Under the pieces are notes generated by a model, which ran no database searches, had not been told where the DNA came from, and was given only the letters and a program-made list of their open reading frames with translations. From a virus: a stretch of DNA of 25,628 nucleotides. Location: the IMG/VR virus record IMGVR_UViG_3300035487_000105, positions 1-25,628 of that record, one strand, 5' to 3'. A program made the position numbers and the translations under genes. Shown one piece after another: positions 3,492 to 10,090 of this stretch. The number at the start of each line of letters is the position of its first letter. Position 1 is the first letter of the stretch.

Positions 3492-3887
3492 TTAATTAAC
3501 TTCATTGTCACCGTTGCCTCCTCCATTTTTATCTTCAATAGATAGCCAATCTTGCACATCGTTTTTTATTTTTATCTCTACTTTATCTTCTAAACCTTTG
3601 GAGCTGGTGATAATTAATTCAGTCACTACCTTATAGCTATCGTTCTCGAATATTATATCCTCCACCATTTTAACCATAGCCACGCAGTTAGAAGCGTCTA
3701 AGGGTCTGCTCTTAAATGTAAAGTGGTATTCGACTTGGTAAGTCTTATCTTTAGGTAGAACTTTAGAGAACTGGCTACTTACTATCTGAGTGTAGTTATC
3801 CTTGATTTGTTTTCGCTTTGTCCAGTGCATACCAGCGTACCATTTGTTTAAAGAAATCTTAGGCAAGTCTTTTAAAATTATAATCAT
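3492..3887 (-). CDS. rusA: RusA-like Holliday junction resolvase
   Basis: 131-aa protein with the RusA layout: N-terminal NKWYAGMHWTKRKQIKDNY, a beta strand (YHFTFKSRP), then the catalytic acidic pattern LDASNCVAMVKMVED (D64, N67, K73, D77) and END (N82-D83), where RusA has D.dN..K...D and dD. A final beta hairpin (EDKVEIKIKND) and a glycine/asparagine-rich tail follow. RusA-type enzymes cut four-way junctions formed during recombination or replication, which fits the nearby ERF and exonuclease genes. The ATG at 3887 lies only four bases after a -7 box (TATATTTG, 3899-3892), so the mRNA may be leaderless. Confidence 0.82.
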   Translation of the reverse strand: MIIILKDLPKISLNKWYAGMHWTKRKQIKDNYTQIVSSQFSKVLPKDKTYQVEYHFTFKSRPLDASNCVAMVKMVEDIIFENDSYKVVTELIITSSKGLEDKVEIKIKNDVQDWLSIEDKNGGGNGDNEVN

Positions 3888-3890
3888 TTA

Positions 3891-3921
3891 GCAAATATAT
3901 CAAAGATTGTTTTATATTTGC
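3891..3921. promoter_or_regulatory. Divergent promoters forming an inverted repeat
   Basis: GCAAATATA (3891-3899) and TATATTTGC (3913-3921) are perfect 9-bp inverted repeats 13 bases apart. Each arm is a -7 box (TATATTTG), the left one firing leftward into the resolvase gene and the right one firing rightward into the leader RNA and replication operon. With the boxes this close, polymerase binding on one side should hinder the other, giving a natural early switch. No clear -33 elements are visible, so an activator or phage factor may be needed. Confidence 0.6.
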
Positions 3922-3928
3922 AGAAGTA

Positions 3929-4015
3929 TTAACCATTGAGGGGTTAAATTTAAGAACTTATAAGACCAACCTTAAGCAGCTGCCTCAATCAGCTTCTTAG
4001 GCGAGGTCTTTTTTT
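3929..4015 (+). ncRNA. Structured leader or small RNA with complementary hairpin loops and terminator
   Basis: Hairpin 1 is TTAACC (3929-3934) / GGTTAA (3942-3947), with the 7-nt loop ATTGAGG (3935-3941). Hairpin 2 has outer stem AAGACC (3962-3967) / GGTCTT (4005-4010), a middle stem 3970-3976 / 3996-4001 with one bulge, and apical stem AGCTG (3978-3982) / CAGCT (3990-3994), closing on the loop CCTCAAT (3983-3989). The two loops are exact complements over all seven bases, so they could kiss. A run of seven T (4009-4015) follows hairpin 2, as in an intrinsic terminator. The upstream box TATATTTG (3913-3920) would start the RNA near 3927, giving about 90 nt. It is either an attenuator for the replication operon (start at 4028) or an independent small RNA. 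Confidence 0.62.
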
Positions 4016-4027
4016 ATATAACAAATT

Positions 4028-4681
4028 ATGAAGCTAACAAAGCGAAAAGGGTTTAATTTTTTTAGGAGCTATTACGATGTCTACAATGAGCTTGCTACAC
4101 ATAAAGACAAAGTAGCTTTTATAGATGCCCTATTAGATAGGCAGTTTCTAGGTATCAAGCCTACTAAATTGACTGGGCTTGCTAAGTTTGCCTACATATC
4201 ACAGACTAATAGTATAGATAGCCAAGTAAAAGGCTATGAGGATAAAACAAATAGTAAACTAACTACCCATAATGAAGAAATAAACACCCCTACGGTAGGG
4301 GGTAGGCAAGGGGGTCTAGCACCCCCTACCCTACAAGTACAAGAGAAAGAGAAAGAGAAAGGGGAATATATAGATGTAGGTTTGCCTAAAACTAAACAAG
4401 ACAAAGACTTGGACAGATATAAGCTATTTATTACTAAATGGAATGAGATTAAGAACTCTAAATATAAGGGGAATACTAACGACCTCGTAAATTTTAACTT
4501 TTGGCTAAAGACATACACGCCAACTGAGATAATCAAAGCAGTAGAGAATCACGATAATCGCTTTTGGGCTGAGAAGATAAACCCACAATGGCTATTTAGA
4601 ACTAAAGACACTAAGGGGCAGCCAGTAGACTATATAGGTCAACTTTTAGAGCACGTAAATAGAAGCAAGCTAAGAGTATGA
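4028..4681 (+). CDS. Replication initiation-like protein (DUF6291-like N-terminal domain)
   Basis: 217 aa. Residues 1-75 (FNFFRSYYDVYNELATHKDK ... IDALLDRQFLG ... LTGLAKFAYISQTNSIDSQV) match the pattern of DUF6291-type domains found at the start of phage replication proteins. A low-complexity linker (about 85-115, VGGRQGGLAPP then EKEKEKG) joins it to a C-terminal domain (TKWNEIKNSKYKGN ... NFNFWLKTYTPTEIIKAVEN) resembling replisome-organiser C-termini. It is first in the rightward operon, downstream of the structured leader, and overlaps the helicase gene by ATGA. Expected role: recognising the origin and loading the helicase. The domain picture is moderately sure; the function is inferred from context. 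Confidence 0.68.
   Translation: MKLTKRKGFNFFRSYYDVYNELATHKDKVAFIDALLDRQFLGIKPTKLTGLAKFAYISQTNSIDSQVKGYEDKTNSKLTTHNEEINTPTVGGRQGGLAPPTLQVQEKEKEKGEYIDVGLPKTKQDKDLDRYKLFITKWNEIKNSKYKGNTNDLVNFNFWLKTYTPTEIIKAVENHDNRFWAEKINPQWLFRTKDTKGQPVDYIGQLLEHVNRSKLRV
4287..4334 (+). repeat. GC-rich inverted repeats in the initiator-gene linker (possible origin)
   Basis: In otherwise AT-rich DNA, CCCCTA (4287-4292) pairs with TAGGGG (4296-4301), and GGGGGT (4310-4315) pairs with ACCCCC (4321-4326) across the 5-nt loop CTAGC. TAGGG-type repeats recur on both strands (TAGGGGGTAGG and CCCCCTACCCTA). The tract encodes the flexible Gly/Pro linker of the initiator-like protein. Lambda-type phages carry their origin repeats inside the initiator gene, so this is a reasonable origin candidate, but low-complexity linker coding could also explain it. 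Confidence 0.4.
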
Positions 4682-5592
4682 TAAAGAAGAGTAGCGAAAT
4701 AATAGACAAGCTGATGCACTTGCAAAAGTATGGTCTGCCCGAAGGAAGTAAAATGGGGTTAAAATCCTTTGACGAGAATCTTACATTTGCTAGAGGTGGG
4801 TGTACAGATATTACTGGCTATCCATTCTACGGCAAGTCTCTAGTTTTAAAAGAAATACTTATGGGCTTAACTCTAAACGAGGGCTGGAAGCATTGCATCT
4901 ATATGCCTGATGACGGTAGCGATGTAGAGGTACTGAGTAATCTAATGCACAAGCTAACGGGCAAGACCTTTGACCAGCACTATGCCAACGCTATCACAGA
5001 GCAAGATATAGCTAGACACTCTGCTGCGTTTATTGATAACTTTAGATTCATAGGCTCAGAGCATAACCTAGAACCTGAAGCCTTTTGGAACTATGCAAAG
5101 GAACTTAAATGCAATTCAGCAGTCATAGATAGCTGGAACTATATGCAGCACAAAGGCGAGCCAACGAGTCCCGATTATTTACGCAAGATATTGAGTCTTA
5201 GAAATAGGTTTATGGATGTTAATAAGATGCACGCATTTACAATTATACACCCTAAGAACCCTGACCCGAAAGCAGTCAAGGACGGCAATGTAAAAAAGCC
5301 AAGTGTCTATGACCTGATGGGCGGCTCTGAGTGGAATAACAATGGTAAAAATATAATGGTAGTTCACAAGGATAGCAAAGAGAACCACCAGCCTTATCAG
5401 ATATATGTAGACAAAGTTAAACCTAAACACTATGGAAAGCTAGGCGATTGTAGTCTGTGGATAGACTGGAGCAAGCAAAGATTCTACGAGTACGATGCAC
5501 CCCTGAATAAAAAGACATACGCTTACGGAGAAGCTGAGACAGTAATAGACCCGATTAATAAATTTAAACAAAAAGACGGAGAGCCATTTTAA
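4678..5592 (+). CDS. DnaB/Twinkle-like replicative helicase (RecA-fold ATPase)
   Basis: 304-aa RecA-fold ATPase. Walker A is GYPFYGKS (G47-S54), after the typical lead-in GLKSFDENLTFARGGCTDI. Walker B is SAVIDSW with D151. The later FTIIHPKNP (H191) and YDLMGGSEWNNNGKNIMVVH match the DnaB/T7 gp4/Twinkle helicase pattern 'HP...yd..GS..w.n..dn...v.R'. There is no N-terminal primase or DnaG-interaction domain, so it is a helicase core only; loading may rely on the preceding initiator-like protein (ATGA overlap). It should unwind phage DNA at the fork. The family is sure; hexamer formation and direction are inferred from the family. Confidence 0.8.
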   Translation: MIKKSSEIIDKLMHLQKYGLPEGSKMGLKSFDENLTFARGGCTDITGYPFYGKSLVLKEILMGLTLNEGWKHCIYMPDDGSDVEVLSNLMHKLTGKTFDQHYANAITEQDIARHSAAFIDNFRFIGSEHNLEPEAFWNYAKELKCNSAVIDSWNYMQHKGEPTSPDYLRKILSLRNRFMDVNKMHAFTIIHPKNPDPKAVKDGNVKKPSVYDLMGGSEWNNNGKNIMVVHKDSKENHQPYQIYVDKVKPKHYGKLGDCSLWIDWSKQRFYEYDAPLNKKTYAYGEAETVIDPINKFKQKDGEPF

Positions 5593-5898: not shown

Positions 5899-5921
5899 TA
5901 TATTTGCAGAAGTATGAACCA
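5899..5921 (+). promoter_or_regulatory. Promoter-proximal repeat with leaderless start
   Basis: TATATTTG (5899-5906) followed by CAGAAGTAT (5907-5915) and G-AACCA (5916-5921). It matches 3913-3935 at 22 of 23 positions; the one difference (G5916 against T3930) makes the ATG of the HNH-like gene at 5914. The start codon is eight bases after the -7 box, so the transcript would begin at or next to the ATG. There is no recognisable -33 element. Confidence 0.55.
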
Positions 5922-6201
5922 CTATTATACCTCTAACGAGGAACGAATAGCAAAAAGCGTCATAGATGCAAAAGTAAGAAAAGCTAAGTCTAACGCACTA
6001 AGCGAGCAATTTTGGGAGTTTGGTTATAACTTCTGCGTAGACTGCTTGCGTTCTACTGGAGTGTACTTAGATTGCTCTCATACTATTAGCGTAGATGAAG
6101 CTCAGAAGACTAGACGAGTTGAGCTGGCGTACGATAAAGATAATATAAAAGTAAGGTGTAGAGCTTGCCACATAGCACACGATAACAAGAGCAAGTTATG
6201 A
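5914..6201 (+). CDS. HNH/NinG-like zinc-binding protein
   Basis: 95 aa. The core has CVDC (about residues 41-44), DCSHTISVDEAQ, AYDKDNIKVRC and RACHIAHD: two CxxC knuckles framing an SH...N...H pattern. This is the layout of treble-clef HNH nucleases and of NinG-type recombination proteins (C..C...H...dNi...C..C). Likely a small nuclease or structure-specific DNA-binding protein acting in phage recombination or packaging. The start at ATG 5914 lies in a promoter-proximal repeat. Overlaps the next gene by ATGA. Nuclease activity is inferred; the metal-binding motif is directly visible. Confidence 0.68.
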   Translation: MNHYYTSNEERIAKSVIDAKVRKAKSNALSEQFWEFGYNFCVDCLRSTGVYLDCSHTISVDEAQKTRRVELAYDKDNIKVRCRACHIAHDNKSKL

Positions 6202-9706: not shown

Positions 9707-10090
9707 ATGGAACAAGAAAGGACAGAGACCCATAAGAAAGCAATGATAGTAGCCCTTGAGAAATCATTAGGGATAGTTACTACGGCTTGCAAAGAGGTAG
9801 GTATAAGTAGACCAACGCACTATAATTGGATGGAAGTAGATAATGATTACAGAAACGAGGTAGAAAGTATAGGAGACGTAGCTTTAGACTTTGCAGAGAG
9901 TCAGCTACACAAGCAAATAAAAGGCGGCAATACTGCTGGCACTATATTCTATCTAAAGACTAAAGGAAAGAAGCGAGGTTATGTAGAACGTACAGAGGTA
10001 CACCAAGAGACTACCTACAAGAGCTTAGATATAAACATCATAGATACTGGAATACCATTAGCATCAAGCGAGAAAGATATAGTTGATTAA
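9707..10090 (+). CDS. terS: Terminase small subunit
   Basis: 127 aa, starting 17 bases after the methyltransferase. The N-terminal half has a helix-turn-helix (MIVALEKSLGIVTTACKEVG ISRPTHYNWME) as in small terminase subunits that bind the packaging site, followed by VALDFAESQLHKQIKGGNTAG and TIFYLKTKGKKRGYVER, a sequence highly typical of TerS. It should recognise phage DNA and deliver it to TerL, encoded immediately downstream with an 8-base overlap. Confidence 0.82.
   Translation: MEQERTETHKKAMIVALEKSLGIVTTACKEVGISRPTHYNWMEVDNDYRNEVESIGDVALDFAESQLHKQIKGGNTAGTIFYLKTKGKKRGYVERTEVHQETTYKSLDINIIDTGIPLASSEKDIVD

Follow-up and report, generated by a model that had tools for sequence, protein, structure and literature searches.

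A probable RNA switch with conserved loop-loop complementarity ahead of early genes in phages of Flavobacteria

RNA I and RNA II of ColE1, two RNAs from opposite strands, carry 7-nt hairpin loops that are fully complementary. Early phage operons can also begin with RNA hairpins, such as lambda nut and HK022 put, which decide on read-through with or without proteins; these hairpins act on the polymerase, without a kiss to a terminator loop. The leader described here, found in a virus sequence and its relatives, shares with nut and put its place as RNA hairpins of an early operon, whereas in the flavophage leader one side of the kiss is the terminator itself. With ColE1 it shares complementary loops of 7 nt. 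The sequence-only reading of this DNA had drawn that comparison, and the 7-bp loop geometry stands but the logic does not, as both loops lie in the same transcript in all leaders instead of facing an opposite-strand, countertranscribed partner; an antisense RNA may exist in addition.

In the guanidine-IV riboswitch, a kiss between two hairpin loops was proposed to stand in the way of the terminator; as P2 grows longer the linker becomes shorter, and the kiss is then less favoured (PMC11611296). The flavophage leader is like guanidine-IV (mepA) in having a 5' hairpin and a terminator-forming hairpin in one leader, with linker length proposed to couple the two (PMC11611296), and a kiss between the 5' loop and the terminator loop is indicated in it by a conserved, covarying pairing. 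The two differ in that guanidine-IV senses guanidine and belongs to exporter genes, whereas the flavophage leader has other hosts, replication or endonuclease genes behind it and no Rfam match, and its loops conserve only complementarity and no sequence. The env8 hydroxocobalamin riboswitch also has a kiss, between the aptamer loop and the expression-platform hairpin, but it differs by controlling translation via the RBS and by its large ligand-binding core (PMC10907184).

The window, i.e. the whole stretch of 25,628 nt that was analysed (IMG/VR record IMGVR_UViG_3300035487_000105), is a 25.6-kb phage contig in which the leader is located between a leftward RusA-like gene and the rightward early operon (Table 1). 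The order is -7 box, H1, 14-nt linker, terminator hairpin H2, U-run and early gene (3913-4028). The layout with two hairpins and a terminator, as first read, proved correct to the base in sequence and fold, and loops L1 and L2 are exact reverse complements across all seven bases. H2 has a 3x3 internal loop (AAC/CGA) above its foot and a 1x1 mismatch between the middle and top stems; the first two T of the U-run are paired at the foot, and 12 nt separate the run from the ATG of the early gene. The leader thus has the form of an intrinsic (Rho-independent) terminator leader, a hairpin with a direct U-run between promoter and ORF, and so do its relatives. No clear -33 element was found before the -7 box of the window; in most relatives a TAnnTTTG box lies 1-7 nt upstream of H1. 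Judged from the -7 box only, the window RNA would start near 3923-3927, and the U-run supports an end near 4015. When the fold was compared with shuffled sequences (z -1.8), 8 of 200 shuffles were equally good; the energy only moderately beats the shuffles and is therefore not the special feature of the leader.

The first gene behind the leader had no Pfam or PHROG match. In named phages, no match was obtained for the leader region (BLASTN) or for the first gene (tblastn), and matches were present for the helicase of the operon. The promoter and RNA 5' end occur once more (TATATTTGCAGAAGTATGAACCA) at 5899-5921 of the window, ahead of an HNH-like gene (5914-6201); the ATG of this gene lies about 7 nt past the box, so that its mRNA is probably leaderless.

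Table 1 Features of the window and leaders located in other genomes
Genome	Feature	Coordinates	Strand	Basis or genes behind the leader
Window	RusA-like resolvase gene, divergent, other side of leader	3492..3887	-	phrog_4632, 1e-9
Window	-7 box, Bacteroidota-type promoter, TATATTTG	3913..3920	+	sequence
Window	H1, 5'-terminal hairpin, 6 bp, TTAACC (3929-3934)/GGTTAA (3942-3947)	3929..3947	+	fold
Window	L1, H1 loop ATTGAGG, 5' half of kiss	3935..3941	+	exact complement of 3983-3989; covaries in homologues
Window	Linker, A/U-rich, single-stranded, 14 nt	3948..3961	+	14-18 nt in most relatives
Window	H2, terminator hairpin	3962..4010	+	fold; compensatory changes in upper part
Window	H2 foot, 6 bp, AAGACC/GGTCTT	3962-3967/4005-4010		
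Window	H2 middle stem, 6 bp, CTTAAG/CTTAGG	3971-3976/3996-4001		
Window	H2 top stem, 5 bp, AGCTG/CAGCT	3978-3982/3990-3994		
Window	L2, H2 apical loop CCTCAAT, 3' half of kiss	3983..3989	+	exact complement of L1; covaries in homologues
Window	U-run of intrinsic terminator, seven T	4009..4015	+	sequence
Window	First gene behind leader, 217 aa, MKLTKRKGFNFFRSYYDV...	4028..4681	+	ORF; frequently the post-leader gene in relatives
Window	Second gene, helicase-like	4678..5592	+	phrog_5482 (6e-53), primase/helicase phrog_239 (4e-19)
FCL-2	Leader	37475-37604		gp54 (replication initiator, phrog_428) and helicase gp55
phi10:1	Leader			gp024-gp026 (primase/helicase)
elemoB	Leader 1	9818-9953	-	gp19, gp18 (replication), gp17 (primase/helicase)
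elemoB	Leader 2	4044-4152	-	endonuclease VII
P12002L	Leader			gp44 primosomal protein
sniff9-2	Leader 1	12490		an endonuclease
sniff9-2	Leader 2	13525		gp042-gp044 (primase)
11b	Leader			gp62
P2559S	Leader			gp48-gp49
Several loci	NUMOD4-type HNH genes with own kissing leader	L122:860, L144:254, L199:12490, L236:1862, L218:1918, L238:1187, L314, L317, L291		by eye

Loci of helicase relatives carry this leader at the corresponding position, with different loops. The loop pair GTTAGGA/TCCTAAC is found in L007, L008, L019 and L023, and L001 has two leader copies with GTTAGG/CCTAAC and AGTGA(A)GG/CCTCACT. Homologues of H1 are present in L001, L007, L008 and L019, with 83 % of cells paired. In the six-sequence alignment of the window's group, 8 pairs changed on both sides, compared with 3.1 in shuffles; the kiss accounts for 4 of the 8 (4/7 of its pairs), and 4/11 pairs changed in this way in the upper part of H2. 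Copy L001b is misplaced by two columns in alignment A1 of this group, which depresses its pair-change counts. The covariance search proposed by the sequence-only reading thus gave compensatory changes in both the stems and the loop pair. Loss of loop complementarity in homologues, which would have spoken against a kiss, is not what they show: the loops are other ones and the complementarity is kept.

In sister phages (L009:3251-3380, L018:1522-1640 and L010:3153-3295, also L012-L017), a different leader occupies the same slot. A long hairpin in it has a loop complementary to the 5' segment (CGTGATACAT or CGTGCAACAT), and this segment is repeated right before the start codon (CGTGATACgaaATG; CGTGCAACAATG). 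This leader looks like a translation-level counterpart, whose loop may pair with either copy. The window has no such third loop copy by its start codon.

When loci fetched by the first gene alone were scanned, many unrelated loop pairs were observed in a constant order of promoter box, H1, linker, terminator hairpin with complementary loop, U-run and ORF. A first, loose descriptor gave 24 matches compared with 5-6 in shuffles, and hence a stricter descriptor and a model without loop pairs were used. The strict descriptor was fixed and consists of a TAnnTTTG box and two hairpins whose loops are complementary, together with a terminator arm and a T-run. Applied to 202 loci, it gave 26 distinct matches at a score of at least 36 (0-1 in dinucleotide shuffles, 0 in reversed sequence) and 41 at a score of at least 34 (1-6 in dinucleotide shuffles). 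A wide DNA-pattern search with the window's own 5' end gave mostly unrelated matches. After removal of near copies, 67 descriptor matches with 54 distinct loop pairs were obtained, a few of which are doubtful (e.g. L064, L254, L229-). An ORF lies directly downstream in 66 of the 67, the exception being a doubtful match. The kiss is 7-8 nt long in most of them, and its stability as a bare duplex has an interquartile range of -9.2 to -11.8 kcal/mol. Some relatives (L212, L213 and L231) have retained no more than 6 paired bases (GGTCAG). Longer linkers often contain an extra small hairpin that uses up length (L126, L148, L149, L151 and L198), and an internal loop UGAA/GGAU, read from the sequences, recurs by the H2 foot in L128, L165, L177 and L179. 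The stems contain 17 G-U pairs and 4 A-C pairs; this strand asymmetry points to selection on the RNA strand. In nine leaders of one subtype (alignment A2), 98.6 % of the cells of the kiss helix are paired and 6/8 of its pairs changed on both sides; over the whole structure, 35 cells with changes on both sides were counted (10 ± 2.7 when shuffled).

Two subtypes have reciprocal loops: TCTCAC is the H1 loop and GTGAGA the H2 loop in one, and the other has them exchanged (L128:1878 and L128:2882; L150 and L180 against L127 and L142). The H1 loops of both subtypes can therefore pair mutually. The stretch TAGTTTATNGGNNNCTTAAAACC is conserved between the U-run and the ATG of genes of about 70 aa (L127, L129, L142, L144, L165, L167 and L177) and is possibly a translation element.

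Loop complementarity was also examined in leaders that had not been selected for it. Leaders picked as promoter, terminator and ORF regardless of their loops showed complementarity of at least 7 nt between the 5' part and the inner hairpin in 20/36 cases, compared with 5-8 % in controls. A covariance model (R1) of nine leaders, in which the kiss columns were left unpaired, gave 51 matches in 89 loci, many of them loci seen before. It recovered leaders missed by the descriptor (L150, L136, L172, L180 and L187), all with 8-nt complementary loops. Among the non-seed matches, 24/29 have own-loop complementarity of at least 7 nt, compared with 3.3 % for mismatched pairs (permutation 0/20000). A chance origin of the complementary-loop leaders is ruled out by the shuffle, reversed-sequence and permutation controls.

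R1 excludes the window's group and matches the window leader weakly (24.9 bits, E-value 0.46), and a second model (R2), which includes the window leader, gives an E-value of 1.8e-8 for it. All subtypes, including that of the window, likely have a common origin, with a single-model link that is weak without the window's own group; one family is favoured because promoter, layout and position are common to the subtypes, and convergence is possible. Ten named phages, of which eight were newly fetched, were searched with R2. Strong matches were obtained in 11b, P12002L, P2559S and phi10:1 (E-values 2e-8 to 1.2e-4), all with complementary loops of 6-8 nt. These are isolated phages and none was used in model building. 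The weak matches in named phages (E-values of at least 0.03) show no loop-loop complementarity: only such matches were found in B40-8, 6H, JQ and CRP19 (an 8-nt match in JQ is an ordinary stem), and crAss001 and Cellulophaga phi38:1 gave no match with R2. As judged from these alignments and searches, selection acts on the loop-loop pairing, and loop sequences vary between phages. Methods based on sequence conservation miss the leader, since the loop contact is conserved and its sequence is not.

The leader is present in Flavobacterium, Cellulophaga, Polaribacter and Croceibacter phages, with three clear copies at most per genome inspected. R1 gave no match in 300 Flavobacteriaceae genomes under strict filters, which makes this a weak negative. 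In 200 Flavobacteriaceae genomes, R2 gave 12 matches in 11 genomes, with complementary loops in three only; these three were the best (E-values of 3.4e-5 or lower) and lie on short contigs (12.9 and 3.5 kb) that are likely phage, and the matches on complete chromosomes have loops that are not complementary. As far as sampled, the leader is restricted to phages.

The position directly ahead of an early operon, as first read, was confirmed, and the operon is one of replication genes in FCL-2, phi10:1, elemoB, P12002L and sniff9-2. In named phages the leaders mostly precede replication genes, and elsewhere they also precede HNH homing endonucleases. About nine leaders of metagenomic phages precede NUMOD4-type HNH genes (recognized by eye from the start MEVWKxIKDYxNYxxSxxGxVKS); as these carry their own leader, mobile genes travel with the regulator. 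In P2559S (NC_018276), the annotated start of gp48 (33955-34194) falls inside the leader, and its true start is probably the ATG near 34005. Two leaders per genome were found in L122, L137, L144, L177 and L199, three in L128, and two or three in G318, G319 and G321; the loop pairs differ between all leaders inspected within one genome. Upstream of a conserved MSKDLF gene (L205-L244), the leader is swapped for unrelated loop types (CTGGTCAG..., CCGCCAAG and AATGGTACT), and their occurrence before near-identical proteins is a sign of cassette exchange.

That no named RNA family has this layout agrees with Rfam (release 15, gathering score, curated riboswitch models), which gave no match in the window. 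No known Rfam RNA was found at the leaders of 19 related loci; the sole match is a DUF805b RNA (E-value 3e-11) at L128:1987-2019, just behind a kissing leader. No description of such a leader was found in open-licence papers.

We infer an effect of the kiss on termination, its direction and an input signal from the arrangement of the leader, and give slightly better than even credence to a transcription attenuator in cis, in which a kept kiss would give read-through and a lost kiss termination at the U-run; this direction is favoured with moderate confidence. RNA polymerase would start at the TAnnTTTG box and H1 would fold at the extreme 5' end, only a few bases from the RNA start and thus with no competitor upstream. 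L2 would emerge ahead of the 3' arm of H2, so that L1 could capture it first and the two loops could form 7-10 bp before the terminator 3' arm is made. H1, kiss and H2 would form a coaxial rod whose ends are tied by the linker of 14-18 nt. With the feet of H1 and H2 at opposite ends, the linker would span the whole rod when H2 is complete; completing the terminator foot would use the slack and leave the linker nearly taut, so that kiss and complete terminator would be opposed. The median leader has an H1 of 6 bp, a kiss of 7, an H2 height of 19 and a linker of 16 nt, giving a roughly estimated rod of 87 A and a linker of at most about 102 A (ratio 0.85), with 2.8 A per bp and 6 A per nt assumed. 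Ten leaders are over the limit, and five with a linker hairpin have more slack by simple count. Some input (a phage or host protein on the kiss, ionic conditions or polymerase speed) would shift the balance; a switch that no input controls would be no more than a fixed attenuator.

Bending of the kissing complex, or of H2 at its internal loop, would relieve the linker, and kiss and terminator could then coexist, in which case the kiss could stabilise the terminator. The kiss of 6 bases in some relatives also speaks against the attenuator. A kiss with a stabilising effect on the complete terminator or on the 5' end, giving a fixed partial terminator and a protected RNA end without switching, would suit the fairly narrow kiss stabilities and a linker whose length in most leaders barely suffices for kiss and complete H2 together. 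We regard it as unlikely, because a terminator this strong needs no helper and complementarity is nonetheless kept through complete turnover of the loop sequence. It is doubtful, too, that the main role is feedback in trans of the ColE1 kind, in which the free, terminated leader of about 90 nt would kiss nascent leaders of the same type, expression would be set by the number of same-loop genomes, and loop diversity would mark compatibility groups among co-infecting phages. Intermolecular kissing is possible, since both loops are exposed and each is the full complement of the other; leaders inspected in one genome differ, and whole leaders are exchanged upstream of the MSKDLF gene as specificity types would show. 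The internal partner, however, is 48 nt away and thus at a far higher local concentration, no leader apart from one doubtful match lacks an ORF behind it, and drift with compensation plus recombination accounts for the diversity equally well. A free small RNA, which had been offered as an alternative, is less likely as the main role, since nearly all leaders lie directly before an ORF, which favours control in cis; yet the terminated leader would be released and could act in trans. Different loop pairs within one genome fit an internal and not a shared partner. A system in which phage early genes and homing endonuclease genes sense how many same-loop genomes are present, with loop types diversifying and recombining like plasmid incompatibility groups, is a long shot.

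The general logic of a 5' hairpin, a terminator hairpin and loop-loop pairing would also suit a riboswitch that senses a ligand in the manner of guanidine-IV, in which the kiss would belong to a small-molecule site and the recurrent internal loop near the H2 foot would be a candidate binding site. This is very improbable, as the loops have no invariant nucleotides, the internal loop is variable (including that of the window), the downstream genes are phage replication and endonuclease genes instead of transporters or metabolic genes, and no Rfam riboswitch matched. A DNA-level element (origin, cruciform or recombination cassette) deserves hardly any credence: leaders are exchanged as cassettes and lie close to replication genes, but their orientation is fixed, after a promoter and before U-run and ORF, several occur per genome, and the excess of G-U over A-C in the stems is strand-asymmetric.

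A riboswitch provides the precedent for a kiss that acts on a terminator. What is new is complementarity conserved without sequence, the setting in a phage replication operon and endonuclease cassettes, and the breadth of occurrence; the leader is probably an unrecorded RNA switch that sets transcription past the stop. Early gene control in Bacteroidota phages is little studied, and the leader would offer a handle on it. To our knowledge, no RNA regulator common among Flavobacteria phages has been described before, and the leader would be the first. It would be placed in these phages at the decision to begin DNA replication. With their roughly 50 different kissing pairs built on a single architecture, the leaders form a natural series in which the action of a kiss on an intrinsic terminator can be tested.
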